A stretch of DNA of 64,000 nt from Rhizophagus irregularis (Eukaryota; Glomeromycota; Glomeromycetes; Glomerales; Glomeraceae). Below are positions 23,811 through 43,470 of the stretch, in pieces; the first letter of the stretch is position 1; each line of letters begins with the position of its first letter. A program made the translations under genes and the position numbers. Location of the stretch: the NCBI RefSeq assembly GCF_026210795.1, contig NC_089442.1, forward strand, positions 1,922,001-1,986,000. Reading direction: 5' to 3'. The notes under the pieces are model-generated. The model searched no databases and was not told the DNA's origin. It worked only from the letters and a program-made list of their open reading frames with translations.

Positions 23811-24005
23811 TTGGCTTATGCATATATCTAATTATCCATTAGTTAAAGAAGATAATATAAGACTTTTGTCATTTTTGGGAAATGAATCTCATGAGTTTAT
23901 TGATGTATGTGCTATTGACCATTGTGTAGGATTTATTAAAATTAATTAAACTTACTATATAATAGATAAAGAAGAACTAAATAATGATTTAGATGAATGG
24001 AAAAT
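23811..24005 (+). pseudogene. Coding relic (unknown lineage-specific family)
   Basis: The frame reads WLMHISNYPLVKEDNIRL, LSFLGNESHEFIDVCAID, HCVGFIKIN, a TAA stop, then TYYIIDKEELNNDLDEWK. The protein-like composition continues directly beyond the single stop. I recall this segment style as a dispersed Rhizophagus family, but cannot name it. No complete gene is present. Confidence 0.4.
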
Positions 24006-24470
24006 TTTTTTTTTTTTAAAATACATAATATATGAAATAATGATCTAATATAAAATAAAAATTAAATAGAATTCAATACTAAATGATTGCTTGAATTAAA
24101 AAAAAGAGCGAAAAAAAATATTTATTTATAATATGATCTGACCCTATATCACTATTTTCAAAATAGTGTGAGACTAAAATCGGGTGAAAAACTGGATGAA
24201 AACTGGTATTTAAATATACAGATGATCAAGTATTTTTTTTTAATATGTCAGAGTGGCACAAAGCCAACCAATTCGTATAATTACTAGAAAAAACGGGAAA
24301 CTGATTAAGCCGTAATTCCATAAAAATTCTGTGATAACATGAAACGATAAAACACGGATCAACATTTTTTTTTACATGGGGCTTCTTTAATGAGATTAGA
24401 TAGATTGGTTTATATAAATTTATATAATTCTGTGATACTGCTTTAGCTAATTTAGTATTAATTAAGGTTT
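24006..24470. other. AT-rich stretch with partial inverted repeat
   Basis: A block near 24320-24365 (CATAAAAATTCTGTGATAAC, GATAAAACACGGATCA) recurs in inverted form near 38582-38720 (TGATCCGTGTTTTATC, CACAGAATTTTTACAG). These could be copies of one short dispersed element. No gene seen. Confidence 0.4.
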
Positions 24471-24474
24471 TAAT

Positions 24475-24599
24475 TTAAAAATTAAGCAGTATCAAGGAAA
24501 ATTCTCGCGAATTTTTCTTGATACTGCCTATTTTTAAAGTTTAAAGACCGATTAGTAACGAATTTAAGAAAAATTCTCACGAATTTTTCTTGATACCGC
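24475..24599 (+). repeat. Hairpin-repeat array A5, left part
   Basis: Two palindromic units ending in CTTGATACCGC, where the LTR element begins. The array resumes at 37202 with CCGCTTATTTTTAAAG. Removing the insertion and one copy of CCGC rebuilds the normal unit end, so this is the pre-insertion array. Confidence 0.85.
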
Positions 24600-25913
24600 T
24601 GTAGCCATAGATACTGGAGTAATCGCATAATATGGAGGAATAATATGGAATAAAAGATCAAACGATAGAAAGTCACATGATTGGATAAAATTAACCGGAA
24701 AGGATAAACTCTTAGGAGAAGGAATGATCTACATGATGTAATGTTTATTAAATGATTAACGGAGAACCAATAGATCCAGTAGGAAGTTGATCGATGTGGC
24801 TTAGCAACCAGTTTATCAAGTTCAACAATAGGAACAATTAGGAGGAGTAATCATAAGCCACAAATGATAAATCATATAAAAAGGAAGGATAGCGAATTAA
24901 AGGAACAAAAAATAGGAACATGTAAAATATTGATGAACTGCAGCCGCAGTAGGAGAATAGCTGACGAGACGCAGTAGAAAAGATAGCACAGCCACAAAAG
25001 ATGGATCTTTACGATATAATATTTGAAAGATTATTTTATTTTAAAGAAAAGATAGCACAGCCACAAAAGATGGATCTTTACGATATAATATTTGAAAGAT
25101 TATTTTATTTTAAAGAAAAGATAGCACAGCCACAAAAGATGGATCTTTACGATATAATATTTGAAAGATTATTTTATTTTAAAGAAAAGATAGCACAGCC
25201 ACAAAAGATGGATTATATCTTTACGACATAATATTTGAAAGATTATTTTGAAGAAAAGATAGCGTATTAAAATAGTATAATATATTAGAAAAGATAATAT
25301 ATAAATAGCATATAAGATAGCGCATAAAAAAGAAAAACATAACATAAAATATTAGAAAGAAATAAGAAGTAAGAAAAGAAAGAATAAGAAAGTTGGTTTA
25401 AATAGGAGCGGAATGGGAGGTGAATTCGACAGTCGTCAGATACAATGTAAAACTTTAAGTAAATTAGTTAATTGTGAATTTTATGAAGAATAAATAAAAT
25501 ACCCTTTGATATGAAAATTAATTGTTTCGATTGTTTTTGTTACTATTTTCTTATGATGAAAAAGTAATTTTGTTTAATTAATTGTTAGTAAAGCGTAATG
25601 TTATTTTAAAGGTAATAGGTTCGCCCTAAACTTTACTGTAATGTTCGCTTAATTAATTTTAATTGGACAAATTCATGGTGAATTTAATGTCATAACGAGA
25701 ATTATGAAATGAATAAAATATAAACTTTTGTAAAGAGAACTATCGTATTTTGAAAGAAGATAATGGATGAAATATCGTGGCGAGAGCTATCGCAATTTGA
25801 AAGTTAAGTAGTAATAAAACTAAACCAAGCAAGAATATTAATGTTTCGTGGAGAACGAATATACATTAAAGCAGGGAAGTTTGTTTACCGCCGGGTGGCA
25901 GACGGGGGTGACA
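24600..25913 (+). repeat. 5' LTR
   Basis: TG...CA termini, 1,314 bp. From about 24982 to 25215 it holds three exact copies of a 69-bp unit (AAAGATAGCACAGCCACAAA ... TTATTTTATTTT) plus a partial fourth. Since 69 is a multiple of three, a repeated 23-residue frame results, which is not regarded as a gene. Tandem repeats in the LTR may be enhancer-like. Confidence 0.92.
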
Positions 25914-25916
25914 ATT

Positions 25917-25932
25917 TGGTGCATGCTCCGAG
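25917..25932 (+). promoter_or_regulatory. Candidate tRNA primer-binding site
   Basis: TGGTGCATGCTCCGAG begins with TGG three bases after the end of the 5' LTR, as expected for pairing to the CCA end of a tRNA. I cannot identify which tRNA without a tRNA set. Confidence 0.55.
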
Positions 25933-27657
25933 AAAGGAAATGTCGACTTTGCGTCGACATTTTGACTATCTTCATATAGTCAAGTACCTATGCGGTATTA
26001 AGAAGGAAACGGTCAACAACTAAGTGAATTGATCACTCGCGAAGGGAAGGATCATTCCGATCATGGTACCGACATGGTATTCCGAAGAATCTGAACTCAG
26101 AAAAAGAGGTGTTAGAATTAAAATATAATATTGGGGAAAAAGGTTGTAAGTACCTGAAAAACTTTAAAATGGGAACGGGCAAAATAGCGATATTGTACAC
26201 CTACCTTAGGAATTATAAAAAGAAGGATGCGGTGATATGATGGAATATAATGAACTCGTTTCAAAATAATAGATTTGTTACAAGAATATCCGGAGAAGTA
26301 TTGTAGTAAGTCACAAAAGTTGTCGTCTTTAAAGTTTTCACGCTAATAATTGTAAAACCAAGAAATTAAGGAAGCCCTCGTAAGATGTGGTATTCTGGGA
26401 GGGGCACCATTGTATTTTGCAGATGCCAGAAGTTCCTGGGGATACAATGTTGTAACGAAAAGTTGACGAGTAAGCTATAAACTCAAGGGTTACGTGGGAA
26501 CCTATTACCAAAACACAAGGGTTGCGTGGGAACCTATTTAAAACACAAGGGTTACGTGAGAACCTATTACAAAAACACCGGCTGTGAATATAACTTCTTC
26601 AGATGGGAATTGAAATAATTGGACTCAGACGTGAGTGGAACATCTCCCTACTGAAAGCATTTTGAAAATGCGTAATTGAATTCACAAGGCAAAAAGAGAA
26701 ACCATCGTGAGTATAACTTCTTCAGATAAAACTGAAAGCATTTAGGGAAATGCGCAATTGAACTTACGAAAAGAAGATGAACGTTATGGAATAATGCGAA
26801 ATTTAAGAATATTTGCTGGTCAAATGATAAAATGTGAATAACAAACCTCGAAACTACTATACTTCATTGTGAAGGTAAAGGCAAGCCGAGTATAGGTTAT
26901 TAAATTGTAAAAGATAATAAATAAGAAGAAACATCGTTAAATAAGTATAAATGCGTGTGTCGCATAAGTGTAAATGCGTGTGTCGCATAAGTGTAAATGC
27001 GTGTGTCGCATAAAGTATAATATGTTGTGTGTCGACATAATGGTGATAATAAGAATTAGTACAAGATTAAACAAAGAAGATATTTTGCGTAATATTGAAT
27101 ATATAGATGTAAAGATTACATATATAATGAAAAAGAACTAAAAATTCACAAACTTTAGAAGTTATGAGAATTTTGAAGTTCGTGAAATGCGAAAATTACA
27201 AATTTTGATGATAAAAGAAAATTTTGAGGCGCAGTAAAAACTTAGAAAATTTTTGGAATTTTTAGAATGCGCAATAAAAACCTCCGCAGTCTGAGGAGAT
27301 TGTGGACTTAGAATAATTTTTGAATTAATGGCGCAGTAAAATATATACATGAAATTATGAAAGATAAGAATAGCAGAAGAAACTTGTGAGAATCAAAAAA
27401 AAAGAGGATTTAAAGATTGAAAGATTAATATAAGAATATTATGAATAAGTAAAAGATTTTAAAAAAAAAAATAAGTTGTTAAATGAATATTCATAATGGA
27501 AGAAAGATTATACATTCAATATAGGTAATAGGAAAGGACAATATAGTAGAGGATGGTTAGAAGATTAAAATAGAAGCGATAAAAATGATATATAAGAGAG
27601 CGGAATTTCAATTTGAATTCTGGATGAATATTTATAATAATTTAATTGGAGTATACG
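25933..27657 (+). other. Long untranslated leader of the retrotransposon
   Basis: About 1.7 kb between primer site and the Gag start with no long frame. It contains three near-copies of ACACAAGGGTTRCGTGGGAAC (26500-26570), a duplicated ACTGAAAGCATTT...AATGCG block (26655 and 26730), and three to four copies of AAGTGTAAATGCGTGTGTCGC (26943-27035). It may hold packaging or internal initiation signals. No evidence separates these. Confidence 0.6.
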
Positions 27658-30600
27658 ATGGAATGGTACCATCAATGGGAAAGTGAATATAGGACACATA
27701 AAGAAGAACATGAGTTAAGAACGGGAGAATTAGATGAATGTTTAAATTGTGAATTATGTCATCCGATAGGAAATGAACCAATGGTATTCAAGAAATTTTG
27801 GGATGCATTATTTAAGTTCGAAGATACAATAATAATATATAACGATGTAACAATTAGAGGAGTATTGGATTTGTTAAGTATGAATAATTCAGAAAGAGAA
27901 GATACAATACATAAAGGGAAATGTAGAGACATAATGGATAGAATAACGGAATCAATAAGATATAGAATACAACCAAAAATGAAAGAAAGGGGATTACGAA
28001 CAATTATATTAGTAATTGTAAGAGACTGTATTGAAAGAAATCTGGGGAATGAAGTATTTGATAGATTAATTGGAAATCCTGAATTAATAGAACACAAATA
28101 TATTTTGGAAGATTGGGATGTTGAAAGAAGGTTTGAGAAATTTTGGCAATGGTATAGAATCACATCAAAAGAAATTGGACCATTACGAGTAAAGACAGGA
28201 GCAATAGAGACGTTTAGGGAGTTACTATATGAAGAAGAAGGAATAGCTATGAATGAGGAGAAAGTAAAGGAACTAATGTCCAAAATAGAATATGAGAACA
28301 TACATATAGAAAATGTTCACGAATATCACAAGAATATGATGCAAAAGATAATAAGAATATTTATAGATACTAGGGGATTTACAAAAGAACCAGAAGATTC
28401 AGAAAGTGAAGATAGTCCAGCAAGTTACGAATTGGAAAATAATTCCGAGGAAGAATTAGAGATAATAATAGGAGATAAATCATGGAAATTTAGTGAATTA
28501 AGAAGAAGGTCAAATGTTATGGATGAAGATCAACTGAGGTACATTTGGAAAATAGGAATAAAGTTGATGATAGAAATGGATATATTGGTAACGAGAATAT
28601 TTATGGATAAAATTCAAGAGATAGAGGAATTGGATGAAAGGGAAAAAGAATTGAGGATAAAAGAATGGTTAGAAAAAGAAACAATAAGATGTGAAAAATG
28701 TGGTAATAGAAGGTTCGAAATGGACGAAGCGGATAGCGAATGCGGGGAATGTGTTAAAGAAGCGCAGAAGAATGAACAAGATGAGCTAATAGAATTAAGA
28801 AACAACTTAGAAAAATTGGGATATGAAATAGATGTGTCAGAAATTCAAAGAATGAAGAGTTTTGGGGTAAATAATCGAATAATAGTAACTAAAGAATTTG
28901 TGGAAGAATATATGGAAATGATAGATTTGGAAGATAAAGAATTAAGAAAAGGAATTCATAAGTGGTTAAACCAGAATACAACTTGGTGCGAAAGATGCGA
29001 AATAAGATGGATGAATGATATGTTTAGATTAGGATGGATGGATGATATGTCTAGAGTAAGAGGAATGGTATGCAAAGATTGTGAAGAAGAAAATATCGAT
29101 GAAATTGATGATCGGGTAAAAAGATTGCAAAAGATTTTTGAAGATATTGGAACAATGATAACTGAAGAAGAATTGTTAAGATTAACTAGTATGGGATATA
29201 CAGATGGAGAAATTTTAGATAAAGAATTCATTGAAATCTTTCAAGAAAATAAGAATGAGTCGGAAAAAGAATTGAAGAAAAAGTTAGATAAGTTGTTGAA
29301 AGAACAAGCAGGAGTAATGGATAGTGAAGAAAGTGGTGAAAAGAGTGATAATGAAGAATCAGAAGAAGACAATACGGATAATTCAGAAAAGATTGGAGAA
29401 ATATTAAGTCCGGATGAAATATGGGACGGAAGTGATGAAGATTTTGAAGAAGAAGAATCTGAAAATGAAATCGAAAATGTTATAAATACAGGAGGTTTTG
29501 GTCTGAATCAAAATTCAGATTCGAATAGTTCATTAAATTTTAAAAATTCTGACACAGAAAGTGAAATATCTGATTACAATTTACAAGAATTATTTCAAGA
29601 GAATATAGTAAATATGGCAAATGAAGCACAAATAAGAAGAATAATGGAGAATGCTATGGGATTGGCACCAAATGCATTAGATAATGCGTTAGGAGCAGGA
29701 CAGACTTTGGCGGATAGGATTCAGACTGCAGGAATGGGGGGAATAGTAGGTATGCCAACTTTTAGTGGAAAAGAGGATGAAGATATTAATGATTGGATTA
29801 GACAATTTGAGATAGCATTTACAGTAAGTGGACGACCAGAAGGAAATGTTGGAGGAGGTGTATGTAGACAAAATAAGGCAAACATAGCTATAACTTGTTT
29901 AAGAGGAATTGCATTACAATGGTATAATGAGGAAAAAGAAAGGGTAGCAGCTAATTTAGTGAATTGGTGTGACCATAATGAGGACAGGAATTTAAAAAGA
30001 AGATTAATCGACAGATTTACTAGGAATGATATTCAAAGAAGAAAGATGTTAGAATTAACAAGAATTAGACAGGGAACAAATGAAAGTGTTGAGGAATATA
30101 TTAGAAGATTTAGGTCAATATTAAGAGTTGCAACTAGAGGTCATGCGTTAGATGATTTATATCAAGTGAATTATTTTATTCAAGGGTTAGATGCTATGCT
30201 AGGTTATCATGTTAGGAGAAGTAATCCGACGAATCTGAATGATGCAGTTAACGAAGCAAAAAGAGAAGAGGAAGCGAAAGATGAATTGTTAATGAAAACA
30301 ACAGGGTTGGATATGAAACGAGTAGGACAAGAGAAAAACATGGAAGAAATTTTGAAAGAAGAGACAAATAAGTATAAAGGAATGAATCCAATTGCGAAAG
30401 AATTACAAAATAAAGAAGTTAAAAGTGATGAATGGGATGAGTTAATTAATGGAATAAAAAGGTTGGAAGCACATGTAATGCAAAGAAATGAAGCGTATGT
30501 AATGCAAAGGAATAGGAATGATAGGAGACCGATCGGAAATAATAATGTCCAAAGAAATAATATGAACTGGGATAGAATGACTTGCTATACATGTGGAAGA

Positions 30601-31236
30601 AAAGGACATACTTCTAGAGTTTGTAGGGAAGGTCAAAGAAGATCATATGGAGGAAATAATAAAGGGTCATATAGCCAAAATAATCAAGTTAATTATCTTG
30701 ATGAAGAATATTATGGTGAAGGATATAATGTGTATAATATGGAATATAATGATGAATATGATGGATATAATGAGGGTGGTGGATATGATAACTATAATAA
30801 TGGATTCGATGGATACGAAGTGAATAACTATGAAGATGAGGAGAGATATGATATGTTCCCAGTACCACCTAGAAAGAGTGAAAGAAATAAAGACAAGGTT
30901 ATGAACGATGAAAGAGATAGAAGAAGAAATGCACAATGGCAAGGACAACAGCAAAAAGCACAGGAGAATAATAAGAGGGGTTTTACAAAAGAACAATTAC
31001 AGAAAGGATATGAAACTAGAAAGAATAATAATAGGTGTCACAATTGTGGACAACAAGGACATTTTGCTAGAGAATGTACAAACGAGAAAGTGAAGTTAAA
31101 TCGAAATATACCAAATGTTGGAGATTTTGATCCATTTGAGCAATTTGTAAATTCAAGCGTACCAATTAATTGGGGACAAATGATGAATGAAAGACCAGAA
31201 GTAAGGAAGAAATTATTAAATGGTTTGAGATATTGA
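27658..31236 (+). CDS. gag: Oversized Gag polyprotein with two CCHC knuckles
   Basis: 1,192 codons from ATG at 27658 (an upstream TTG extension is ignored). The N-terminal 600 residues are charged and helical and contain CxxC pairs: CEKC near residue 345, CERC near 444, CKDC near 472. They sit in two or three diverged repeats of a module with ELRKGIHKWLNQNTTWCERC. An acidic linker follows. From about residue 690 a retrotransposon gag domain is recognisable: MPTFSGKEDEDINDWIRQFE, LRGIALQWYNEEKE and LTRIRQGTNESVEEYIRRF. CCHC knuckles are CYTCGRKGHTSRVC near 976 and CHNCGQQGHFAREC near 1127. Usual Ty3/gypsy Gag is about 300-450 residues, so the N-terminus is an addition. The ORF ends in TGA and the protease lies in the same frame beyond it. 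Confidence 0.9.
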   Translation: MEWYHQWESEYRTHKEEHELRTGELDECLNCELCHPIGNEPMVFKKFWDALFKFEDTIIIYNDVTIRGVLDLLSMNNSEREDTIHKGKCRDIMDRITESIRYRIQPKMKERGLRTIILVIVRDCIERNLGNEVFDRLIGNPELIEHKYILEDWDVERRFEKFWQWYRITSKEIGPLRVKTGAIETFRELLYEEEGIAMNEEKVKELMSKIEYENIHIENVHEYHKNMMQKIIRIFIDTRGFTKEPEDSESEDSPASYELENNSEEELEIIIGDKSWKFSELRRRSNVMDEDQLRYIWKIGIKLMIEMDILVTRIFMDKIQEIEELDEREKELRIKEWLEKETIRCEKCGNRRFEMDEADSECGECVKEAQKNEQDELIELRNNLEKLGYEIDVSEIQRMKSFGVNNRIIVTKEFVEEYMEMIDLEDKELRKGIHKWLNQNTTWCERCEIRWMNDMFRLGWMDDMSRVRGMVCKDCEEENIDEIDDRVKRLQKIFEDIGTMITEEELLRLTSMGYTDGEILDKEFIEIFQENKNESEKELKKKLDKLLKEQAGVMDSEESGEKSDNEESEEDNTDNSEKIGEILSPDEIWDGSDEDFEEEESENEIENVINTGGFGLNQNSDSNSSLNFKNSDTESEISDYNLQELFQENIVNMANEAQIRRIMENAMGLAPNALDNALGAGQTLADRIQTAGMGGIVGMPTFSGKEDEDINDWIRQFEIAFTVSGRPEGNVGGGVCRQNKANIAITCLRGIALQWYNEEKERVAANLVNWCDHNEDRNLKRRLIDRFTRNDIQRRKMLELTRIRQGTNESVEEYIRRFRSILRVATRGHALDDLYQVNYFIQGLDAMLGYHVRRSNPTNLNDAVNEAKREEEAKDELLMKTTGLDMKRVGQEKNMEEILKEETNKYKGMNPIAKELQNKEVKSDEWDELINGIKRLEAHVMQRNEAYVMQRNRNDRRPIGNNNVQRNNMNWDRMTCYTCGRKGHTSRVCREGQRRSYGGNNKGSYSQNNQVNYLDEEYYGEGYNVYNMEYNDEYDGYNEGGGYDNYNNGFDGYEVNNYEDEERYDMFPVPPRKSERNKDKVMNDERDRRRNAQWQGQQQKAQENNKRGFTKEQLQKGYETRKNNNRCHNCGQQGHFARECTNEKVKLNRNIPNVGDFDPFEQFVNSSVPINWGQMMNERPEVRKKLLNGLRY

Positions 31237-31842
31237 CTACACTCGGGGGAATTAAAGAATATTAATCAGAAAGAAGAAAAATCACAAGCAACAAGATGTA
31301 ATATAATAATTGAAGGGAAAATGATTAGAGCATTAGTTGATACAGGAGCAGGACCTTCAGTAATAACGAATGAACTGAGAAAAGAATTAAATATACCAAT
31401 AACGAAGGAAAGTAATGTCGTATTAACAATAGCAGATGGAAATAACATAGCTTCATTAGGAAGAGTGGAAATTAGAATAGAAATTGACGAAAATTTAGAA
31501 ATACCTTTGGAGTTCGAAGTAATCGACTCGAGAAGAAAAGATTTAATATTAGGAACTGATTTATTAAGATATGGGATAATAAATATGAAAGAAGGTCTGT
31601 TAACAATAGAATGGGATAATGGAATATATGAAATACCAATTGATTTTAGAGGAAAGAAAAATGTTGAATTCGAGGAGTCAGGGAATAGGGGTGAATTTAA
31701 TGGAGATCCAAAGAATATAGATGATATAGATGGCAATTCTAGTGAAGAGTCAGAGAGTGAAGATGAATATGAGGAGATGGAAAAAGAAGAGTTGTTATCG
31801 ATTGTAAAAACTGATAGAGAAAAGAGGGATGAGGAAAAATGA
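31237..31842 (+). CDS. pro: Retroviral-type aspartic protease (readthrough domain)
   Basis: The frame of Gag continues after its TGA (31234-31236) without another stop for 201 codons. First ATG is at 31321. The catalytic motif LVDTGAGPSVI is followed by EVIDSRRKDLILGTDLLRYG, the ILG-type flap/C-terminal motif of retropepsins, and an acidic tail. It would cleave Gag-Pol. As the segment before 31321 is also protein-like (SQATRCNIIIEGKMIRAL, the usual first strand of retropepsin), synthesis by readthrough from Gag is more likely than independent initiation. It ends TGA overlapping the next ATG (ATGA). Confidence 0.88.
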   Translation, partial: LHSGELKNINQKEEKSQATRCNIIIEGKMIRALVDTGAGPSVITNELRKELNIPITKESNVVLTIADGNNIASLGRVEIRIEIDENLEIPLEFEVIDSRRKDLILGTDLLRYGIINMKEGLLTIEWDNGIYEIPIDFRGKKNVEFEESGNRGEFNGDPKNIDDIDGNSSEESESEDEYEEMEKEELLSIVKTDREKRDEEK

Positions 31843-34172
31843 ATGGTCTTGGCTTTCTGAATGAAGGAGAGACGGTAAAGATGCTAAATGAGAGCAAAGA
31901 AGAAAAATTTGAAAAGAAAACACATCTGGGAGAAATGAGCGATGAGGAGAGAATAGCATTTAAAAAATTGATAAGGGAATATGAAGATATATTCGAATAT
32001 GACGAAGAGAAACTGGGAAGGATAAATACAGTTAAACATGAAATAATAATTGAAGAAAATCAAGGACCAATAGCACAAAAGAGATATAAAGAAACTGATG
32101 AAAAAGGAAAGTTTATAAAGAAAGAAATTGAACAATTGTTAAAGATGGGGAAGATAAGAGAATCATGGAGTAATTGGGCATCTCCAGTAACGTTAGCAGG
32201 AAAGAAAACTGGAAATTATAGATTTTGTATAGATTATAGAAAGCTGAATAATGTGACAAAGTCAGATGAATATCCTTTACCCCGGATAGACGAATTGTTA
32301 GAAAAATTTAGAAAGGGAAGTTGGTTCACAAGTTTGGACTTAGCAGCAGGATATCATCAAGTAGAAATGGCAGAAGAAGATAAAGAGAAAACAGCGTTCA
32401 TTTGTTCACAAGGATTATATGAATACAATGTTATGCCATTTGGATTGAAGAATGCACCAGGAACATTTCAGAGATTAATGGATAAAATATTAAAAGAATA
32501 TATAGGAGAATTTGTTACAGTGTATTTAGATGATATAATGATTTATTCAGAAGATTTTGAGAAACATATAGAGCATGTAGATAAAGTATTGAGTAAATTG
32601 AGAGAGAATAATATGATTGTGAAATTGAAGAAATGTCAGTTTGGATTGAGAAATATAAATTTCTTAGGGCATATAGTAGGAAGAGATGGATTGCGACCAG
32701 ATAAAAAGAAAGTTGAGAAAATAGAAAATATGAGGAGGCCGAAAACTGTCACGGAAGTAAGATCATTTTTAGGATTATGTTCATATTATAGGAGATTTAT
32801 AAAAGGTTTTTCGAAGATAGCAAAACCTTTGCTTAACTTAACAAGAAAGAATGAAAAGTTTGAATGGAAAGAAGGACAACAAGAAGCATTTGACGTATTA
32901 AGGACAAAATTGACAGAAAATCCAATTTTAGTATATCCGGATTTCAGCAGAGAATTTATATTGATAACTGATGGATCTAAGATAGGATTAGGAGCAGTGT
33001 TAGCTCAAATGAATGAAGAAAATAAAGAGGTTGTAATAGCTTACGCAAGTAGGAGTACAGTTGGAGCAGAGAAGAATTATCCACCAACAGAATTGGAATG
33101 CTTAGCGGTATTTTGGGGAATACAACATTTTCAGAAATATTTAGTAGGAAGGAAATTTATAGTGATAACAGATCACGCAGCATTAAAAGGATTAACAGAT
33201 GGAAAGGAACAAACGGGAAGGAGAGCAAGATGGGTAATGAAATTACAACAATTTGATTTTAAAATAGTACATAGAAGTGGAAAGAAAATTAAAAATGCAG
33301 ATGGATTATCAAGACTGAGATTTAAAGAAAAAGAAACAGAAAGGAACGAGAATCAAGAAATAACAAAAATAGAAAGTAATAAGGGGAAATTGAGATATAT
33401 CAAATTTAGGAATAAATGGTATAATGCTAAAAGATTTAAAGGGAGATGGGATGATGAAAAATATTTTACCGATAAAGAAGCCATACTTTTGAATTTGGAG
33501 GAAAGGACAGAAAAAGAATTATTAAAGAAATTGGGAAGAGAAAATAAGCCACAAGTTATTATAATCGACGGAGTGGATGGATTAGGAAAAACAAGTATAG
33601 TACAAAATTTGATTAAAGAGTGGGAAAAGCAAGGATTAAAAGTAAGATTTAATACATTCAAAAGGAGAAGAAAAGACAAAGGTGAATTTCACGAATCAAA
33701 ATTAGAAACAGAATGGAAATTTAGAAAGGAAGTAGTAGAACAAATAAACAGAAGAATGTTAGAATATGATGAAAATACGGATATAATAATTCTGGACAAA
33801 TCGCCATATTGCGAATATTATTATCAGAAGACGAAAAGTTTCAACAGAGGATTAATTACTCCACATGGGAACCATGAGGTGGAAAAAGAAATATTCAGAT
33901 TAAAAGGAACAATAGATGAATCAATAGTGATATTTTTGGAAAAAGATGGCGATGTATGTTGGGAAAATTATATTGGAAGAGAAACGAAGAAAATGGAGAA
34001 ATCGTCATACCCAACATTAAAGAAAAATGAATATTTGGACATGGTTAAAATGTTTAAAGAAAACCAGGATGTATACAAAGATACCAAAAGATACAGTCAA
34101 ATTGAAGTTAGGAATGACGATAGTAGTTGGAGAAAAGTATATAAGGAGATAGAAAAACACCAAAGAGCTTAA
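31839..34172 (+). CDS. pol: RT-RNase H fused to thymidylate-kinase-like domain
   Basis: 777 residues. Reverse transcriptase spans roughly 95-335: FCIDYRKLNN, SLDLAAGYHQVEM (Asp167), MPFGLKNAPGTFQRLMD, YLDD at 229-232, FLGHIVGRDGLRPD. RNase H spans about 365-490, with ITDGS (Asp378), TELECLAVFWGIQHF (Glu420) and TDHAALKGL (Asp445). A short linker leads to a P-loop domain from about 570: IIIDGVDGLGKTS (Walker A, GVDGLGKT 578-585), a helix with EWEKQGLKV, then ILDKSPYCEYYYQ (653-656 DKSP, in the place of the DR[YSH] motif of dNMP kinases). After that come IVIFLEKDGDVCWENYIGRE (LID-like) and a C-terminal helix. This order fits thymidylate kinase/deoxynucleoside kinase folds. No integrase is present in this ORF. 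The ATG overlaps the protease stop. Confidence 0.9.
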   Translation: MNGLGFLNEGETVKMLNESKEEKFEKKTHLGEMSDEERIAFKKLIREYEDIFEYDEEKLGRINTVKHEIIIEENQGPIAQKRYKETDEKGKFIKKEIEQLLKMGKIRESWSNWASPVTLAGKKTGNYRFCIDYRKLNNVTKSDEYPLPRIDELLEKFRKGSWFTSLDLAAGYHQVEMAEEDKEKTAFICSQGLYEYNVMPFGLKNAPGTFQRLMDKILKEYIGEFVTVYLDDIMIYSEDFEKHIEHVDKVLSKLRENNMIVKLKKCQFGLRNINFLGHIVGRDGLRPDKKKVEKIENMRRPKTVTEVRSFLGLCSYYRRFIKGFSKIAKPLLNLTRKNEKFEWKEGQQEAFDVLRTKLTENPILVYPDFSREFILITDGSKIGLGAVLAQMNEENKEVVIAYASRSTVGAEKNYPPTELECLAVFWGIQHFQKYLVGRKFIVITDHAALKGLTDGKEQTGRRARWVMKLQQFDFKIVHRSGKKIKNADGLSRLRFKEKETERNENQEITKIESNKGKLRYIKFRNKWYNAKRFKGRWDDEKYFTDKEAILLNLEERTEKELLKKLGRENKPQVIIIDGVDGLGKTSIVQNLIKEWEKQGLKVRFNTFKRRRKDKGEFHESKLETEWKFRKEVVEQINRRMLEYDENTDIIILDKSPYCEYYYQKTKSFNRGLITPHGNHEVEKEIFRLKGTIDESIVIFLEKDGDVCWENYIGRETKKMEKSSYPTLKKNEYLDMVKMFKENQDVYKDTKRYSQIEVRNDDSSWRKVYKEIEKHQRA

Positions 34173-34187
34173 AATTATATTTCCAAA

Positions 34188-34529
34188 ATGGTATTAGGAG
34201 ATTGTTATATGAATTGGTTTCTTACCTATCGAGTAAAGGTCGATAAGATATGGAAAGTGACTATAAAAGAAGAAGAGAACAAAACAATTATCCATTTAAG
34301 GATTAAAGAAGAAGAAGACTTCATACTAGTAGATGTACACATTATAATAAGACTAAAAGAGAAAAAGGTAAAATTAATTATGGAAGATGGAAACAATATG
34401 ATAATAGAAGAAAGACCAATAGAAAAAGGATTAGGATGGGTACGATCTAAATTGATTATAGGGAATGAAAAATATATAAGAAGGATAGAAATACCAAGGA
34501 TCAAAAATAAATCGAGAGATAAAAATTAA
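34188..34529 (+). CDS. Small ORF between Pol and integrase, unknown
   Basis: 113 codons in the same frame as Pol, five codons beyond its TAA. It starts MVLGDCYMNWFLTYRVKVDK and alternates strands of charged and hydrophobic residues (VTIKEEENKTIIHLRIKEEE, VKLIMEDGNNMIIEERP), suggesting a small beta-rich protein. No family recognised. It could be an accessory product or a relic that separated integrase from Pol. Confidence 0.45.
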   Translation: MVLGDCYMNWFLTYRVKVDKIWKVTIKEEENKTIIHLRIKEEEDFILVDVHIIIRLKEKKVKLIMEDGNNMIIEERPIEKGLGWVRSKLIIGNEKYIRRIEIPRIKNKSRDKN

Positions 34530-34669
34530 AAATATATGGAACAGTTATCACGACGCTTTATTTTTACAACACCTTAATTTTTACAACACCTTAATTTTTA
34601 CAACACTTCAACCCTTTATAACATTTCAACCTTTTACAACACTTTAGCTTTTAGAATTACAACATAGAC
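34530..34669 (+). promoter_or_regulatory. Pyrimidine/CAACA repeat leader before integrase
   Basis: Four to five copies of TTTTTACAACACCTTAA-like 15-17-bp units, then a TTTTAG followed by AATTACAACATAGACATGG. The composition, poor in G on the plus strand, differs from the coding flanks. It may be a 3' splice acceptor tract or an unstructured leader that lets integrase be translated from a spliced or subgenomic RNA. Confidence 0.45.
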
Positions 34670-35857
34670 ATGGAAGAGGAAGAATATAATAGGATAGCGA
34701 GGAATATCAATGACGAACGGGGATATGAAATTATAGGAGGATTAATTTACAAAATAAAAGATGAGAAAAGACTAAGAGTGATAAGAAAATACGAATTTGA
34801 AGGGTTAATGTACATAGCTCATGATCATGAATTATCAGGACACTTTGGAATAGATGCAACGTATAATAGGATCAAGGATGGGTATTATTGGAAAGGGATG
34901 AGAAAAGATGTAGAAGCTTATGTCAAATCATGTAATAATTGTCAGAGAAGAGGAAAACCAATAGGAAAACATGAACTGAATGTAATCAAAGTTATAGAAC
35001 CATTTTATCAAATTGGGATTGATGTAGTGGGACCATTACCAGTAACAAAGAGAAATAATAGATATATAGTTACAGCGATGGACTATTTTACAAAATGGCC
35101 TGAAGTAAAGGCATTGGAAACAGCAGATGCTAAGGAAATTGCAAGATTTATTTATGAAGATATAATATGTAGGCATGGATGTCCAAAGAAGATATTGAGT
35201 GATAGAGGAAGTCATTTCAATAATAAATTAGTGAAATCATTAATGGAGGAATTTCAGATAAAACATAACTTTTCGACGCCTTATCATCCAAAAACTAATG
35301 GGTTAATTGAAAGATTTAACAAGACATTATGTGAATCATTAGCAAAGCTAAGTAATATCGAAGATTGGGATTTGAAAGTACCAGGAGTATTGTTCGCGTA
35401 TCGAACTAAAAGGAATGATTCAACGAAAATGGAACCAGGATATTTAATATATGGGAGACAAATGAAGACATTATTAGATTTAGAAGATAAGGAAATTACC
35501 ATGGCAGAGAGAGTTAATGGGTTGATCGAAGGATTACCAAACATTAGGAATCAAGCTAAAGAAAATGTCAGGAAATCTCAGGAAAAACAAAAATCGTACC
35601 ATGATAAAAAGAATAGAATAAAGCAGAAATTACAAATCGGAGATAAAGTACTATATTATGATGCAGCAAAAGAGAAACAATGGTCTGGAAAGTTAGAAGA
35701 AAAATGGAAAGGACCTTATTATGTACATGAGATAATTTCTAAAGGATCATACAGAATTAAAACTATGGAAGGGAAGATATTGAAAACGCCAGTAAATGGT
35801 GAATTACTGAAGGAATATATTGATAGGACAAATTTTGAAGTAATAGTTCGAATTTGA
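34670..35857 (+). CDS. int: Integrase, separately encoded
   Basis: 395 residues, frame different from Pol. The HHCC zinc domain has HDHELSGHFG (His53, His58) and CNNCQRRGKP (Cys88, Cys91). The catalytic core has GIDVVGPLP (Asp118), ILSDRGSHF (Asp178) and TNGLIERFNKTL (Glu214), giving the D-D-35-E spacing. The C-terminal domain contains LQIGDKVLYYD and KWKGPYYVHEI, the GPY/F module of Ty3/gypsy integrases. It inserts the cDNA copy. The ATG at 34670 lies about 500 bp beyond the end of RT-RNase H, so it is not part of one Pol frame. The stop is 30 bp before the 3' LTR. Confidence 0.92.
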   Translation: MEEEEYNRIARNINDERGYEIIGGLIYKIKDEKRLRVIRKYEFEGLMYIAHDHELSGHFGIDATYNRIKDGYYWKGMRKDVEAYVKSCNNCQRRGKPIGKHELNVIKVIEPFYQIGIDVVGPLPVTKRNNRYIVTAMDYFTKWPEVKALETADAKEIARFIYEDIICRHGCPKKILSDRGSHFNNKLVKSLMEEFQIKHNFSTPYHPKTNGLIERFNKTLCESLAKLSNIEDWDLKVPGVLFAYRTKRNDSTKMEPGYLIYGRQMKTLLDLEDKEITMAERVNGLIEGLPNIRNQAKENVRKSQEKQKSYHDKKNRIKQKLQIGDKVLYYDAAKEKQWSGKLEEKWKGPYYVHEIISKGSYRIKTMEGKILKTPVNGELLKEYIDRTNFEVIVRI

Positions 35858-35872
35858 TGGGACTCAAATTTT

Positions 35873-35887
35873 AGGTGGGGGGCAAAC
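35873..35887 (+). promoter_or_regulatory. Polypurine tract
   Basis: AGGTGGGGGGCAAAC lies immediately before the 3' LTR TGTAGCC, the expected place of the plus-strand primer. Confidence 0.7.
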
Positions 35888-37201
35888 TGTAGCCATAGAT
35901 ACTGGAGTAATCGCATAATATGGAGGAATAATATGGAATAAAAGATCAAACGATAGAAAGTCACATGATTGGATAAAATTAACCGGAAAGGATAAACTCT
36001 TAGGAGAAGGAATGATCTACATGATGTAATGTTTATTAAATGATTAACGGAGAACCAATAGATCCAGTAGGAAGTTGATCGATGTGGCTTAGCAACCAGT
36101 TTATCAAGTTCAACAATAGGAACAATTAGGAGGAGTAATCATAAGCCACAAATGATAAATCATATAAAAAGGAAGGATAGCGAATTAAAGGAACAAAAAA
36201 TAGGAACATGTAAAATATTGATGAACTGCAGCCGCAGTAGGAGAATAGCTGACGAGACGCAGTAGAAAAGATAGCACAGCCACAAAAGATGGATCTTTAC
36301 GATATAATATTTGAAAGATTATTTTATTTTAAAGAAAAGATAGCACAGCCACAAAAGATGGATCTTTACGATATAATATTTGAAAGATTATTTTATTTTA
36401 AAGAAAAGATAGCACAGCCACAAAAGATGGATCTTTACGATATAATATTTGAAAGATTATTTTATTTTAAAGAAAAGATAGCACAGCCACAAAAGATGGA
36501 TTATATCTTTACGACATAATATTTGAAAGATTATTTTGAAGAAAAGATAGCGTATTAAAATAGTATAATATATTAGAAAAGATAATATATAAATAGCATA
36601 TAAGATAGCGCATAAAAAAGAAAAACATAACATAAAATATTAGAAAGAAATAAGAAGTAAGAAAAGAAAGAATAAGAAAGTTGGTTTAAATAGGAGCGGA
36701 ATGGGAGGTGAATTCGACAGTCGTCAGATACAATGTAAAACTTTAAGTAAATTAGTTAATTGTGAATTTTATGAAGAATAAATAAAATACCCTTTGATAT
36801 GAAAATTAATTGTTTCGATTGTTTTTGTTACTATTTTCTTATGATGAAAAAGTAATTTTGTTTAATTAATTGTTAGTAAAGCGTAATGTTATTTTAAAGG
36901 TAATAGGTTCGCCCTAAACTTTACTGTAATGTTCGCTTAATTAATTTTAATTGGACAAATTCATGGTGAATTTAATGTCATAACGAGAATTATGAAATGA
37001 ATAAAATATAAACTTTTGTAAAGAGAACTATCGTATTTTGAAAGAAGATAATGGATGAAATATCGTGGCGAGAGCTATCGCAATTTGAAAGTTAAGTAGT
37101 AATAAAACTAAACCAAGCAAGAATATTAATGTTTCGTGGAGAACGAATATACATTAAAGCAGGGAAGTTTGTTTACCGCCGGGTGGCAGACGGGGGTGAC
37201 A
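35888..37201 (+). repeat. 3' LTR
   Basis: Same length as the 5' LTR with a constant offset of 11,288 bp, including the three 69-bp repeats. I found no mismatch by eye. It is followed by CCGCTTATTTTT, which repeats the CCGC before the 5' LTR. Confidence 0.92.
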
Positions 37202-37460
37202 CCGCTTATTTTTAAAGTTTAAATAAATTGAAATCACGATTTTTTAAGAAAAATTCTCACGAATTTTTCTTGATGCTGCTTATTTTAAAGTTTAAAGACC
37301 GATTAGCAAACTGAAATCACGATTTCAAGAAAAATTCTCGCGAATTTTTCTTGATACCGCTTATTTTTAAAGTTTAAATAAATTGAAATTACGATTTTTT
37401 AAGAAAAATTCTCGCGAATTTTTCTTGATACCGCTTATTTTTAAAGTTTAAAGACCGTAA
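37202..37460 (+). repeat. Hairpin-repeat array A5, right part (forward units)
   Basis: Three to four forward units of the AAGAAAAATTC/GAATTTTTCTT palindrome with TACCGCTTATTTTTAAAG after each. Continuous with 24475-24599 before the LTR element inserted. Confidence 0.85.
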
Positions 37461-39258
37461 AAAACTAAATATAGTGCATGTGATATTTAACCTCATTCCT
37501 TTTTTACATCAGCTCATGATTTAAACTTATTATAAATAGCAAAGCGTGATACTGTTAAGAATTTGGTCGATTTATTATTATATGATTGAGGTTGTGAACG
37601 GAATCTCAGCCATCTTTTATGAATCAATTAAATTCAAATCTTTTGATGCCACCAGTTCATTTGATTAGATTTTATAAAAAATTTGTTTATTATTATTTAT
37701 TGTATATTTTATGCTGTACATATCCGGATGTAAACTAAAAATATTTGTTTTAATATTTTAAAATAATAACGGATTAATTAATTAACAATAATAAAAAATT
37801 TAATCAAATTATTTAATTTAATGATCAAGGCTTTTAATAATCAAGGCTTTTTAATGATCAAGGCTTTTTAACGGTCAAAGCTTTTAATAAACGCGGCTTA
37901 ATTTTAATTCAAGGCTTTTTAATGATCAAGGCTTTTTAACGGTCAAAGCTTTTAATAAACACGGCTTAATTTTAATTAAACATCCTTATTAGATTACAGA
38001 TTTCTTCTTTTTGATGATACATATGGTACCTTCAGATATTGTTTTTCGAATGTTAAAGCTAAGAAATCCGGATCTCAGCCCATCATCTATCTAATCTATC
38101 TAATTAAAAAATTTTGTCATATTTAGATTACCCGGTATAAATAATTTGAATTGTGTAACATTGAAAAGTGTGATATTCTTGCGTTCAATCTATTTCGTAA
38201 TTATCATATCATAATTAACTAACTACGATAGCCAATCTTTAAACTAATACATTTATAGTTAATTAAAATTTTAACTGGATTTTAATACTAACAAAAAAAA
38301 AGTATAATTTCTCTTATGCATTTATTTGCGGTCATTTCCACTCTTTTAGTTACCACGAACCATTTCTATAATAATAATTTTTACTAAAAAACCGAAACTA
38401 CCTTTTTGGTCTTTTTTTTATTAATTTTTTATCCCTCTTTTTATCATTATTGTTTCTTTTGGTTAACTTAACCAAAATTTTTTTATTCTTATTGGATTTT
38501 TTTTAGGGGTTTTTTTTAATCGGAATTTATTAAAATTTTGGATTTTTTTTTTAACCCAAAAAATATACCCTGTAAAAAATCTGATCCGTGTTTTATCTTT
38601 CCATATTTTTTCCATGAATGCATCATTTTAATGGAATTTATAGCCTTAAATCATGGAAATTTTCATCTCGCTAACACGGATATCCGTGAATGTATCATTT
38701 TCACAGAATTTTTACAGAAGACACAGAGAAATAATGGAAATATTCAGATAAAAATTTTTTATAGGGATAGTTTATTCTTTTTTTTGGTTTGGGTTAAGAC
38801 TATAGAACTATGTCCTACGGCTTTTTGTGAGATTTTTTTTAGTCAATGATATTGTTCTGACTAATAAATTCGTGTGAAAATTTTTTTTTTAGTGAGAATT
38901 TTTGATTTAGTGAGAACTTTTTCTGTTTATTGAGATTTTTTTTCGATTTAATGAGAATTTTTTTTATGAGATTGATTTTTTCAATATTATTTCTGACTAA
39001 TAAATTTGTGAAAAATTTTTTTGATATTACCGAATTTTTTTTGTGAGATTGTTTATAATTATATAGATATTTTGTATTAAATCAATAATAAATTTTTTGA
39101 TAAATCTATATAACTAAAAAAACTATATAACTAAAAAAATTTGTCCGACATTTGGACTAGTTTTATTTGATTATATATAGATTGAAATTCGAAGAAAATA
39201 GTACCAACAAAACTTTTTTATTAAAAGACCAAAATACATATATATTTTATTAATTAGT
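37461..39258. other. Intergenic region with repeats, upstream of transposase
   Basis: 37820-37980 holds repeats of TGATCAAGGCTTTTTAA and ACGGTCAAAGCTTTTAATAAA. 38280-39060 is T-rich with TTTAGTGAGAATTTTT repeats. A 103-codon frame at 38538 overlaps a dispersed repeat and is not supported. No second gene of a transposon pair is seen. Confidence 0.5.
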
Positions 39259-42200
39259 ATGCCTTTGTGTACGTGTACTCACTGTAAAGCTTTAACAAAT
39301 GGTATTGGAAAAGAAATTTATAGAACAACAGTAATTCGTCATATGAAAAAAGAACAAGAGGAGCAAGAACTAGAAAATGCATACCAAAGTCTTCATTCTG
39401 AAGAAAATTATTTTGAAGAAAATGAAGAAAATGAAGAAGAAAACTCATATGAAGAACGCTCATCTCCTATGGAAATATCAGAAATATCTGACAATGAAGA
39501 AATTCTTATAGAGGAAGAAAATCTTACTACCTTACATAATGATGAGGCTTCTATAGAAATTCTCTCCAGTTTTCAAGATGAGGATGAGGAAATTGATGAT
39601 TACTATCATGAAAGCGATGACTTAAACCATTATGATTCTCAAAGTGAATTAGAGTTTGATACCTCTGATGATAAAGAAGGTGAATTTCGAAATAATTATA
39701 ATAATATTTTAAATTAGTAATTTACCAACTTTTTTTAGATAATACGACTTTTTCTAATGAATTGTTCGAAGGATTAAGGCTTTTATATGTGAAATCGAAT
39801 TTTAATTTTTCTGAAGCAGCATTTAATAATATATATAAAGCCTTCAATAGAAATAAAATAAGTTTTAATAAAGTAAAAAGAAAGCTTGGTTCAATAGTAG
39901 GAATTGAACCAAAAATATACGATATGTGCGTTAATTCATGTTGTGCATTCGTAGGAATTTTAGAAAATGAAATAAAATGTAAATTTTGTAAGGAGGATCG
40001 ATATTATAGTAATGGTAAAGCGAGAAAAAATCTACCTTTTATTTCTATAATTGAGCATTTAAAGCTTCAATTTAAAAACCCTGAAAGATCTAAAGAACTA
40101 TTATATAGGCACAATTATACTTGTAATAAAGGAGAATTTGCTCATAATAACATAGGTGACATCTTTGATGGACAGATTTATCAAGAATTATTAAATGACG
40201 AATATTTTCCCGATCCAAGAGACATCGCATTTACTGCTTCTTGCGACGGCTACCAAATATTTCGTCAAAAGACCGATGATTGTTGGGTGTTCCTGTTTCT
40301 AAATAATAATTTACCTCAAGAATTAAGAGTAAAGAAAGAAAATTTAATGGTAACTTTAATAATCCCGGGGCCAAAACAACCTCAAGATTTTAATTCATTT
40401 CTCTATCCATTAATTCAAGAAATGAAATCCTTACAAGGTATATTTTAAATAAATGGTACGTAATAAATGTAATATTTATTAATAATATTTTTAATATTTA
40501 CAGATGGAATCTCTTGTTACGATGGTAACAAAGAGGAACAGTTTACTCTACGTGCTCACATTCTGGCTTGGACTGGCGATATCCCTGCCCTTTCAAAGGT
40601 TCTATGTTTAACAGGACATAATTCATACTCAGGTTGCAGATTTTGTAATCTTCGAGGGACTTTAAATGAAACGAATAGACATGTGTATTATCCATTGCAA
40701 CAAAATATTAATCCTAAACGATTACCAATTTGAACACATGATGAAATACTGAATAGCACAAATCAAATAGAACGTCTGGAGGGAGATCGTAGAGAAACTT
40801 ATATACGTGACTGCGGTTGGTCCAATATTTTAAAATAAAAATAAATTCTTAGTAATTAATATTAATATATTTTCTCAATTTTAAAAATTTTTTGTTTAAT
40901 AAAAAAAATTAGGAATTAAAGGAAAGAGTATTTTATTTGAGTTATCTTCTATAAATTTTCCATGTTCATTTCCAGTAGATATAATGCACCTTTTTTTTGA
41001 AAATGTTGCACCCCATATGTTTCGACATTGGATAGGAAAATTCTATCCAAAAAATAATGAATGGAACTCAAATGAATATACAATAAGTTCTAAAACATGG
41101 GTTGAAATTGGTGAAATCATGGAACGAAGTAGATCTCATATGCTACCTGATATTGGACGTCCTCCACGCAATATCGTTAAACATTCAGCTGGGTTTAAAG
41201 CTGTAGAGTGGGCTAATTGGATCATTTTATTCTCTTTACCATTACTAAAAGGGCAATTGCCGCAAAGGTAATAAAAAAAATCAAATTGTTGGCAGATAAA
41301 ATAATAAAAAGTCTGCTGATAACATTATTTAACTTAAAATAATAGTAACCTCTTAGGATGGTCAAGATTTGTTGAAGTTGTCAAGTTATGCATTCAACCT
41401 CTAATAGAATTTGAAGAGCTAGATTTAATTCAAAATTTATTAATAGAATTTTACAATCATTATGCAAAGTAATTTTCTTATGAAATTTATATATGCCTTT
41501 TTCTTTAAACGATATTTTTATTGATCGCGTGAATTTTTTTGTGCAATAGTTCATATGGCATTGGAGGAGAAAGATTACCGGCATTTTTAATTTCTTTTCA
41601 TTATTTATTACATGTAATAGATTCGATTGAAGACTTTGGTCCTTGTCGTGGATTTTGGCAGTTTCCGATGGAGAGGTTTTGTGGAATGTTAATTCCACTT
41701 GTTAGCTCTCGAAAACTACCATATGTGAATTTGTTTAATAATGTGTTGATGCAAGAAAGATTTAAGTATCTGCAACTTTTACCAATATATAATGAAAAAG
41801 TTTTTTCCAATTTTAAAGAAAAAGAAAAAAAAACATGGCCGGTGCATAGAGTATATTCTAATGAATTATATGTTCACGAATACGAATTTTATTCACCATT
41901 TGTTAATTGTGTATTAACAAAAAATAAAGTCATAAAGTTAAAGCAATGTTATGCAGCTATATTTCAAAAGAATACTAGCGAAATTACGGTGATTTTATAT
42001 TATAACTCACATAATAATATGTATAAGAATATTCTTTTTTAAAAAAAATAATATATAATTTTTTTTATATAGAACATTAAAGAAAACTATGCTAAGTATG
42101 GAAAACTTCGTACAAAGGATGGTAACATTATATCATCTAAGTGGTGGAAAAAAGAAAATGATAGTAGTCGAAATAATTTTTGCGTCGCTGTAAGAAATAA

Positions 42201-42583
42201 ATATATTAATTATTATTATTGTTTCATTATATATTCAAAATTCAAAATATTAATAAGATAATTTTATTATATAGATTAATTTAACTGTTGACTTACAAGA
42301 AAAAAATTACCGTGCTCCTCTAAATTTGAGAGAAGAAGAAATTTTTGGACAAATTGAATATTTTATGGTTCATGAATTTCAAAATCAAGAGCGAATGTTT
42401 GCATATATTCGAAAAATCAAAAAATTAGAGAAAAATAGTAGTGTGAATTTAAAATTTTTTGATAGTTTTGGTCCTTTACAATATGTGGAAGTAATTGGTA
42501 TTGATAGAAATGTCGGATTTTTTGAAGTACTCCTTGAAAAAAAAAAATATTATTATATAATAGATAAATATGAAAATTGGTAA
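39259..42583 (+). pseudogene. Tnp2-like (CACTA/Plavaka type) transposase, multi-exon, disrupted
   Basis: Exons: 39259-39679, 39739-40435, 40504-40816, 40913-41267, about 41357-41470, about 41549-41985, then two short exons to 42583. First-exon start MPLCTCTHCKALTNGIGK, with an acidic tail. Conserved Tnp2 features: YDMCVNSCCAFVG with CKFCKEDRYY, FDGQIYQELLNDEYFPDPRD, IAFTASCDGYQIF, SYSGCRFCNLRG, then LSSINFPCSFPVDIMHLFFE and GPCRGFWQFPMERFCGML. The first two junctions keep frame (phase 1 to 1). A TGA at 40731-40733 falls inside a conserved exon (KRLPI-stop-THDEI), and the 41267/41357 junction does not keep frame, so the copy is probably dead. It would cut and move an element bounded by the hairpin arrays A5 and A6. 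Confidence 0.8.
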
Positions 42584-42654
42584 TAAAAATCTTTACCTTG
42601 AAAATTCATATTATTAATTCTCTAATAAATAAGAAATATTTGCTTAAATTTTTT

Positions 42655-43470
42655 TTTCTTTGAATTTACATAAATAAGAAATTCTCGCGAATTTTTCTTA
42701 GTGATCATGATTTTAGTTTACTAATCGGTCTTTAAACTTTAAAATAAGCAGTATCAAGAAAAATTCGCGAGAATTTTTCTTGAAATCGTGATTTCAGTTT
42801 GCTAATCGGTCTTTAAACTTTAAAATAAGCAGCATCAAGAAAAATTCGTGAGAATTTTTCTTAAAAAATCGTGATTTCAATTTATTTAAACTTTAAAAAT
42901 AAGCGGTATCAAGAAAAATTCGTGAGAATTTTTCTTGAAATCATGATTTCAGTTTGCTAATCGGTCTTTAAACTTTAAAATAAGCAGTATCAAGAAAAAT
43001 TCGTGAGAATTTTTCTAGAAATCGTGATTTTTAGTTTACCGTATACGGAATTTAATACGGAATTTATAAAAACGTATATCAAATATATATAAAACATATC
43101 ATTTCCATATACAGATTTCTTATAGTTTGAACTTAAAATAAAAATTCAATGATATTAAGGAAAATACTCGCGAATTTTTCTTAAATTAAGCAGTAGATCA
43201 GTTGAACCTTAAAAAATAAGCGGTATTAAGGAAAATTCTCGCGAATTTTTCTTAAATTAAGCAGATGTAGATCGGACTTTGAACATTAAAATTAAGCAGT
43301 ATTTTGCGCTTTAAAGATTAAATACTATTAAGAAAATTTCGCGCAAATTTTTATTGATGATCGTAATTTAAATTGGACGTTAAAAATAAGCAGTAATAAG
43401 AAAATTTTACTGATCAGGGTTTGTACTTTAAAAAAAATTTATTAAGGAAATTGTCCCGAATTTTTATTAA
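42655..43470 (-). repeat. Hairpin-repeat array A6 (reverse units)
   Basis: Five well-conserved reverse units to 43030 and four more diverged to 43470, with TTAAAATAAGCAGTATCAAG before the palindrome and ATCGTGATTTCAG after. It mirrors array A5 across the transposase gene. Confidence 0.85.

Follow-up and report, generated by a model that had tools for sequence, protein, structure and literature searches.

We identified a thymidylate-kinase-like domain at the end of the Pol protein of a Ty3/gypsy retrotransposon in Rhizophagus irregularis (Glomeraceae). The 12.6-kb element lies in a stretch of 64,000 nucleotides (here the window; contig NC_089442.1 of assembly GCF_026210795.1, positions 1,922,001 to 1,986,000), and its kinase is encoded in one open reading frame (ORF) with reverse transcriptase (RT) and RNase H. 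We predict, with a probability of roughly 0.6, that the domain is a P-loop deoxynucleoside monophosphate (dNMP) kinase related to thymidylate kinase, captured between RNase H and integrase by an ancestral Glomeraceae Ty3/gypsy lineage and kept since, its likeliest role being phosphorylation of thymidylate (dTMP) or another dNMP for cDNA synthesis. The domain is under purifying selection and has moved between element subfamilies as a unit. The Pol features, in coordinates of the window, are:

31839..34172, + strand, Pol ORF of 777 aa in a single open frame (RT, RNase H, linker, kinase), stop TAA
32202..32678, + strand, reverse transcriptase (Pfam RVT_1, Pol 122-280, E 2.5e-41)
32865..33254, + strand, RNase H (Pfam RT_RNaseH_2 / RT_RNaseH; RT_RNaseH at Pol 368-472, E 3e-36)
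33264..33545, + strand, linker between RNase H and kinase, its last ~60 residues reading ...W.D.KYFT.KEA.LLNL...LL..LGR
33546..34169, + strand, thymidylate-kinase-like domain of 208 aa (Pol 570-777; stop at 34172)

Fold and family of the domain

An earlier note on this DNA, made from its letters alone, had proposed a thymidylate kinase or related dNMP kinase at Pol 565-777. The range is essentially right, the domain itself occupying residues 570-777, and the identity is supported by the predicted structure. The predicted fold is confident and clearly matches kinase folds: in a re-examination of Foldseek's top 1000 chains, all 50 listed matches are thymidylate kinases (TMPKs) or nucleoside kinases, and not members of an unrelated P-loop family. 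TMPK is tied with the deoxynucleoside kinases dCK and dGK and with AbmG, and the substrate class (dTMP, another dNMP or a nucleoside) is therefore undecided by fold.

Family profiles favour a TMPK over a nucleoside kinase. In a survey of 42 sequences (the window domain and 41 relatives), Thymidylate_kin (PF02223) is matched by 35, with a best E of 7.4e-8, and the PHROG family phrog_761 ('thymidylate kinase') by 40; the latter matches the window domain over its full length (E 5e-15). One relative, P0126, reaches the Pfam cut-off for PF02223 (27.4 bits, P-loop part only), further relatives bear PF02223 in the database's own annotation, and automatic annotation names pieces of the domain family, for example, 'Thymidylate kinase-like domain-containing protein'. 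The first NCBIfam match of the window domain is a dTMP kinase model (E 1.2e-4), covering only residues 4-44 and far under its cut-off. A deoxynucleoside kinase, which would act in salvage by converting nucleosides to dNMPs and would still feed the supply of deoxynucleoside triphosphates (dNTPs), is an unlikely alternative: the deoxynucleoside kinase family PF01712 is matched by 8 of the 42 sequences and less strongly (best E 1.6e-4), and the P-loop GVDGxGK and the Asp-to-Gln spacing described below resemble those of E. coli Tmk. The fold tie speaks in its favour.

From sequence alone the identification as a kinase would be weak. A sequence search of the PDB with the domain alone returned P-loop proteins, FtsY and adenylate kinase among them. 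With a profile of the family alignment (A2), TMPK entries appeared at E 0.016-0.018 over the P-loop only, in a result swamped by RT and RNase H entries because some members of the alignment are whole Pol proteins. A distant relative, P0124, gave nothing below E 0.06. No dUTPase family was found among the Pfam matches of the Pol ORF, the domain or the six window proteins scanned.

Conserved residues

The earlier note had pointed to Walker A, DKSP and LID-like motifs in the C-terminal part of Pol; all three are present (33570-33596, 33795-33806 and 33978-33992). Residue conservation was counted over 111 stop-free translated kinase sequences, in which genomic loci and database proteins are pooled and hence not independent:

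33570..33596, + strand, Walker A GVDGLGKTS (Lys15 in 108 of 111)
33723..33725, + strand, Arg60 of the domain, aligned to E. coli Tmk Arg78 (109 of 111)
33795..33827, + strand, DKSP...YQ, Asp84 to Gln94, with spacing equal to DR...YQ of E. coli Tmk (Asp84 in 108, Lys85 in 107 and Gln94 in 106 of 111)
33978..33992, + strand, LID-like RETKK, Arg145 to Lys149 (Arg145 in 110 and Lys149 in 107 of 111)

The arginine at the thymine-contact position and the glutamine of YQ are retained according to a low-scoring alignment with E. coli Tmk (probability 55%), and an alignment with a phage TMPK agrees (probability 92%). We take the equivalents of Arg60 and Gln94 to be base- and phosphate-binding residues in TMPKs. 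A further block, KRRR at residues 39-42, is invariant or nearly so in alignment A2 (Lys39 in 110 and Arg42 in 108 of the 111 sequences).

The KRRR block is uncommon and might contact nucleic acid or phosphate, and the relative P0124 also contains a NUDIX domain, whose family acts on a variety of nucleotides. Both would suit an active P-loop phosphotransferase with another substrate (the 5' end of RNA or DNA, or a modified or signalling nucleotide), directed for example against host defence. We consider this rather unlikely, given that every one of the 50 listed fold matches is a TMPK or nucleoside kinase and that the residues presumed to bind base and phosphate in TMPKs are kept.

Spread in the genome and in relatives

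The genome searched (146.7 Mb, 32 contigs) contains at least 151 matches to the domain, falling into four groups by identity to the window copy. Among 150 listed matches, 130 span at least 195 residues (122 without a stop, 8 with stops); these comprise A (the subfamily of the window copy; 95-100% identity, 21 matches), B (83-88%, 58), C (60-66%, 15), D (56-62%, 34) and two others (74% and 67%). The identity ranges of C and D overlap, and the two groups were separated by matched range and ORF lengths. The 20 short matches are partly fragments of one copy, so that matches are not equal to copies. One C copy (L061) and two D copies (L063, L064) were read. The ~60-residue end of the linker ahead of the kinase is conserved in many relatives and missing in subfamily B.

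The two LTRs of the window element are identical, and this copy is therefore very young and could not by itself demonstrate retention. Its youth would also suit the chance capture of part of a host gene that then hitch-hiked in recent copies, or an artefact of assembly or annotation. That explanation is in the main refuted, and we regard it as scarcely credible: the matches form four groups and are near full length down to 56% identity, the domain is found in other assemblies and species, and dN/dS is about 0.1 between subfamilies. The domain is thus no one-copy accident, since at least 151 matches, mostly near full length and free of stops, occur in one genome and it is present in close and distant relatives alike. 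Neither of the two outcomes that the earlier note would have taken as refutation, a fold match to an unrelated P-loop family or a domain confined to this copy, was observed.

Two R. irregularis proteins, 96 and 99% identical, are the best database matches to the kinase region. RT and/or RNase H together with the kinase in one protein were found in R. irregularis DAOM 181602, in R. clarus and in further proteins. The Pol query gave 40 proteins, the domain 65 and a 16-row profile 99, and all organism-named matches among them are from R. irregularis, R. clarus, R. diaphanus or Glomus cerebriforme; these searches require shared 5-residue words, and distant relatives can escape them.

No kinase match was found within 1.5 kb on either side of RNase H in the 30 loci ranking best by RNase H (L031-L060), the kinase-bearing copies ranking lower. 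In a tree of RT plus RNase H with 22 rows, 16 from kinase-bearing lineages split from 6 without a kinase (SH-aLRT 100); the rows are the 97% non-redundant set of 65, the tree has no root from an outside element, and the kinase-less rows come from this genome only. One of the 16, P0041 (482 aa), is without the domain. The split fits a single capture of the kinase in an ancestor.

Several loci show other arrangements. Gag-like sequence precedes the kinase in L024, L026, L027 and L028, with no RT match; when translated, L024 and L028 have a Gag-like piece in frame with an RNase H tail and the kinase, a join also present in protein P0042. Four kinase-less gypsy loci (L032, L035, L038, L043) encode ~316 residues with 14-16 cysteines in frame after RNase H and before integrase. 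This extension occupies the kinase's place in another Gypsy family.

Selection

The comparison of substitution rates across copies that the earlier note had suggested gave ratios well below 1. Between A and B, the kinase has dN 0.058-0.061 and dS 0.67-0.78, a ratio of 0.075-0.09 (0.077-0.10 with a second B copy), and is under purifying selection; the RT ratio is 0.10-0.12, with dS saturated. Within subfamilies the kinase ratio is 0.19 in A (n=20) and 0.05 in B (n=9), and that of RT 0.07 in A (n=19) and 0.03 in B (n=4), so the constraint on the kinase is somewhat below that on RT. YN00 values are available for some pairs and NG86 values elsewhere, dS above ~1 is saturated, and copies that contain stops or have short coverage were excluded.

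The kinase as an exchanged module

Subfamilies A and B are 86-88% identical in the kinase protein, compared with 70-72% in RT, 62-65% in RNase H and 58-59% in integrase (unbroken matches). A and C show the reverse, with 84% in RT, 72% in RNase H, 80-82% in integrase and 61-63% in the kinase. At the DNA level, in 150-nt windows, identity to B (which is without most of the linker) is 63-78% ahead of the domain, 85-91% inside 33504-34103 and 61-72% in the integrase ORF.

Trees of the 16 sequences that have both parts (copies with stops or short coverage left out) place A differently. By RT plus RNase H, A joins the C-type proteins P0016-P0021 (support 100/100) and a grouping of A with B is rejected (approximately unbiased (AU) test, p 4.4e-36); by the kinase, A joins B and P0014 (100/98), the branching among these three not being resolved, and A with C is rejected (AU p 1.8e-60). 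The groups were named once the identities had been seen, a practice against which the AU test's note warns; the log-likelihood differences are still large (265 and 98). The kinase behaves as an exchangeable cassette that moved as a unit between subfamilies, a finding that is new here. By parsimony, it probably passed from the B lineage into A, because the RT of P0014 groups with that of B, and the closest RTs to that of A (P0016-P0021, L061) occur with a kinase of the other type.

In the copies read, the kinase always sits between RNase H and integrase, but the ORF break shifts. In the A, B and C copies the kinase ends the RT-RNase H ORF and integrase is a separate ORF beyond stop codons. In the two D copies the RT-RNase H ORF terminates first, and the kinase continues into integrase with no stop. 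A structural or assembly role, in which the fold would serve as a spacer or dimerisation module of Pol without catalysis, could account for a fixed polyprotein position under a shifting break. It is very improbable: the Walker A lysine (108 of 111) and the LID arginine (110 of 111) would not be needed in a spacer.

Origin

The donor of the kinase was not found among the phage, viral, genome-contig and host comparisons made. A tblastn search of 50,697 phage records with the domain gave one weak match (a Vibrio phage TMPK, E 0.2), and P0124 gave none in the phage records. Scans of viral and genome contigs for a viral or prokaryotic origin found no relative, using short peptide patterns that can miss distant ones. 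A phage TMPK (17.9 bits), E. coli Tmk (8.4) and the best-scoring exon piece of a host TMPK (9.4) are all remote from the kinase profile. There is no sign that the domain was copied recently from the host TMPK gene, in a comparison that used exon pieces of the host genes only.

P0124 (JGI, 393 aa, from a 6.2-kb contig) has a NUDIX domain (PF00293) above the cut-off, followed by linker and kinase. It is a distant but clear relative, alignable over 227 columns at 40% identity, and a NUDIX-kinase of this type is a possible donor. Its listed matches in the genome cover linker and kinase, none starting before residue 157 but for one that starts at residue 114 and crosses stops; this locus (L066) is a decayed kinase-integrase retro-copy and was rejected as a NUDIX match. 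Several database proteins of ~250 aa start with their own Met at or just ahead of the linker, so that some kinases may stand alone or have an ORF to themselves.

Proposed function

The domain is made within Pol and, as a Pol part, should therefore be packaged with RT. We predict that it would phosphorylate dTMP (or another dNMP) to the diphosphate (dNDP) close to RT, so that host nucleoside diphosphate (NDP) kinase could complete the dNTPs that cDNA synthesis needs while the host's pools are depleted. In general, dNMP kinases yield dNDPs, from which NDP kinase gives dNTPs. There is somewhat better than an even chance that this is a selfish lineage that has its own dTMP/dNMP kinase in Pol, exchanges it among subfamilies as a cassette and exerts partial control over the nucleotides available to its reverse transcription.

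The base composition of the element may be relevant. The sense strand of its body (25914-35888) is strongly purine-rich, with much A and little C (A/C/G/T at 43/9/22/25), so that a first cDNA strand would be ~43% T; this would fit a raised demand for dTTP, and a source of dTTP would suit such a template. At fourfold sites of RT, the kinase-bearing groups average 62-72% A and 0.3-4% C (28 copies), and 25 kinase-less RTs 40% A (26-52% in single copies) and 17% C.

Several points weigh against a dNMP kinase that serves reverse transcription. The window domain scores 22.2 bits with PF02223 (E 1.2e-4), below the Pfam cut-off of 27, and in a scan of the whole Pol, NB-ARC (E 0.0011) ranks above Thymidylate_kin (0.01). 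AAA_14, NB-ARC, NPHP3_N, AAA_28 and KTI12 are each matched by 28-33 of the 42 surveyed sequences, with best E values weaker than that of PF02223. The domain has DK in place of the DR(Y/F/H) motif of TMPKs (Lys85 in 107 of 111), and the fold tie with dCK, dGK and AbmG leaves room for a nucleoside kinase. In the window's own subfamily the kinase is less constrained than RT (0.19 vs 0.07), and a fixed tie to RT is not established, the kinase being joined to RT-RNase H in A-C but to integrase in D. The A-richness is a correlation with a single clade and could have another cause than a dTTP source; T is also low at fourfold sites, which is unexpected under a plain dTTP surplus. In yeast, raised dNTP pools increased Ty1 mobility: loss of ribonucleotide reductase inhibitors raised it through cDNA recombination and not through more cDNA, and hydroxyurea can also raise it at permissive temperature (PMC3002893). 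Thus, dNTP supply need not act at reverse transcription.

Other features of the element and window

The element has LTRs with TG...CA ends, a target-site duplication and the domain order protease-RT-RNase H-integrase of Ty3/gypsy elements, and its insertion is recent. Features outside the Pol ORF are:

24596..24599, no strand, target-site duplication CCGC (4 bp; or ACCGC, 5 bp), partner at 37202-37205
24600..25913, + strand, 5' LTR, TG...CA ends, 1314 bp, identical to the 3' LTR
25914..25935, + strand, primer-binding-site candidate TGGTGCATGCTCCGAG, by its position adjoining the 5' LTR
27646..31236, + strand, Gag ORF (Retrotrans_gag at residues 747-849, two CCHC knuckles), terminating in TGA-CTA
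31237..31842, + strand, protease ORF (aspartyl protease), in the Gag frame behind the TGA
34188..34529, + strand, 113-aa ORF in the kinase-integrase interval
34670..35857, + strand, integrase ORF with its own ATG (H2C2 zinc domain, rve core)
35873..35882, + strand, polypurine tract AGGTGGGGGG preceding the 3' LTR
35888..37201, + strand, 3' LTR, 1314 bp, zero differences from the 5' LTR

Upstream of the Gag domain (27646-29880) the Gag frame holds ~740 open residues; six CxxC spacings occur there, and Pfam gives no match in this part at E below 0.1. At the Gag stop, the 10-mer ATTGACTACA (31234-31243, TGA-CTA-C) is common to all four copies that reach the junction (the window, L062, L063 and L064, from A, B, D and D; no C copy covers it). 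We take UGA CUA to be a leaky-stop context, and its conservation would allow readthrough from Gag into protease. The 113-aa ORF is present in subfamily A, and the copies read from B, C and D lack it; a within-group dN/dS of 0.43 (17 copies) indicates weak constraint. An Rfam scan of 24000-38000 gave no match, and a tRNA scan of the whole window found none.

Immediately beside the retroelement is a DNA transposon (37197-43021), in which inverted repeats 5.4 kb apart (the two longest pairs 94 and 97% complementary) enclose a tnp2-type transposase ORF (PF02992, 39762-40448). A Sel1-repeat ORF and then a protein-kinase ORF lie at 57359-60165; both gene classes are described as expanded in R. irregularis (PMC8647823).

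Comparison with known systems

Among the known enzymes, TMPK (PF02223; S. aureus TMK 4dwj, E. coli Tmk) differs from the window domain, which has DK for DR, the near-invariant KRRR and a score below the cut-off, and is of a type fused to RT-RNase H or integrase. The deoxynucleoside kinases dCK and dGK differ in their weaker family match (8 of 42) and in the TMPK-like P-loop and YQ spacing of the window domain.

LTR elements are described with a chromodomain, a DnaQ-like exonuclease or, in orchid Gypsy elements, an AlkB-type m6A demethylase (PMC6338049, PMC9289625). These resemble our case as captured and retained domains, but no nucleotide kinase is named; the word 'kinase' is absent from the main texts of both papers, and 'thymidylate' from those of the R. 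irregularis transposable element papers examined. The earlier note knew of no Ty3/gypsy element with a dNMP kinase, and literature searches pairing kinase with retrotransposon, Gypsy or Rhizophagus found no such fusion. As far as these searches reach, a nucleotide kinase is a new enzyme class for retroelements.

Retroelements are usually seen as dependent on host dNTPs, the exception, to our knowledge, being the retroviral dUTPase, which hydrolyses dUTP. If our reading is true, a nucleotide-making kinase in Pol would be a second retroelement strategy, that of supply. The idea of dNTP limitation becomes directly testable with a small domain, a standard assay and at least 151 natural matches; the genome also offers kinase-less Gypsy relatives and a module swap that arose naturally and whose boundaries are known. 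In arbuscular mycorrhizal fungi, Gypsy elements are one of the groups that expanded recently (PMC8647823).

The closest parallel is the retroviral dUTPase, likewise a nucleotide-metabolism enzyme inside a retroelement polyprotein. The lentiviral enzyme is placed between RNase H and integrase. It lies within pol (PMC1224870), the lentiviral case being non-primate; dUTPase is N-terminal of Pro in betaretroviruses and C-terminal of integrase in MuERV-L. It has another fold and another reaction, dUTP hydrolysis, whereas the enzyme described here would be a P-loop kinase. By analogy, the best reading of the Pol-borne kinase is as a counterpart of the lentiviral dUTPase that would support reverse transcription.
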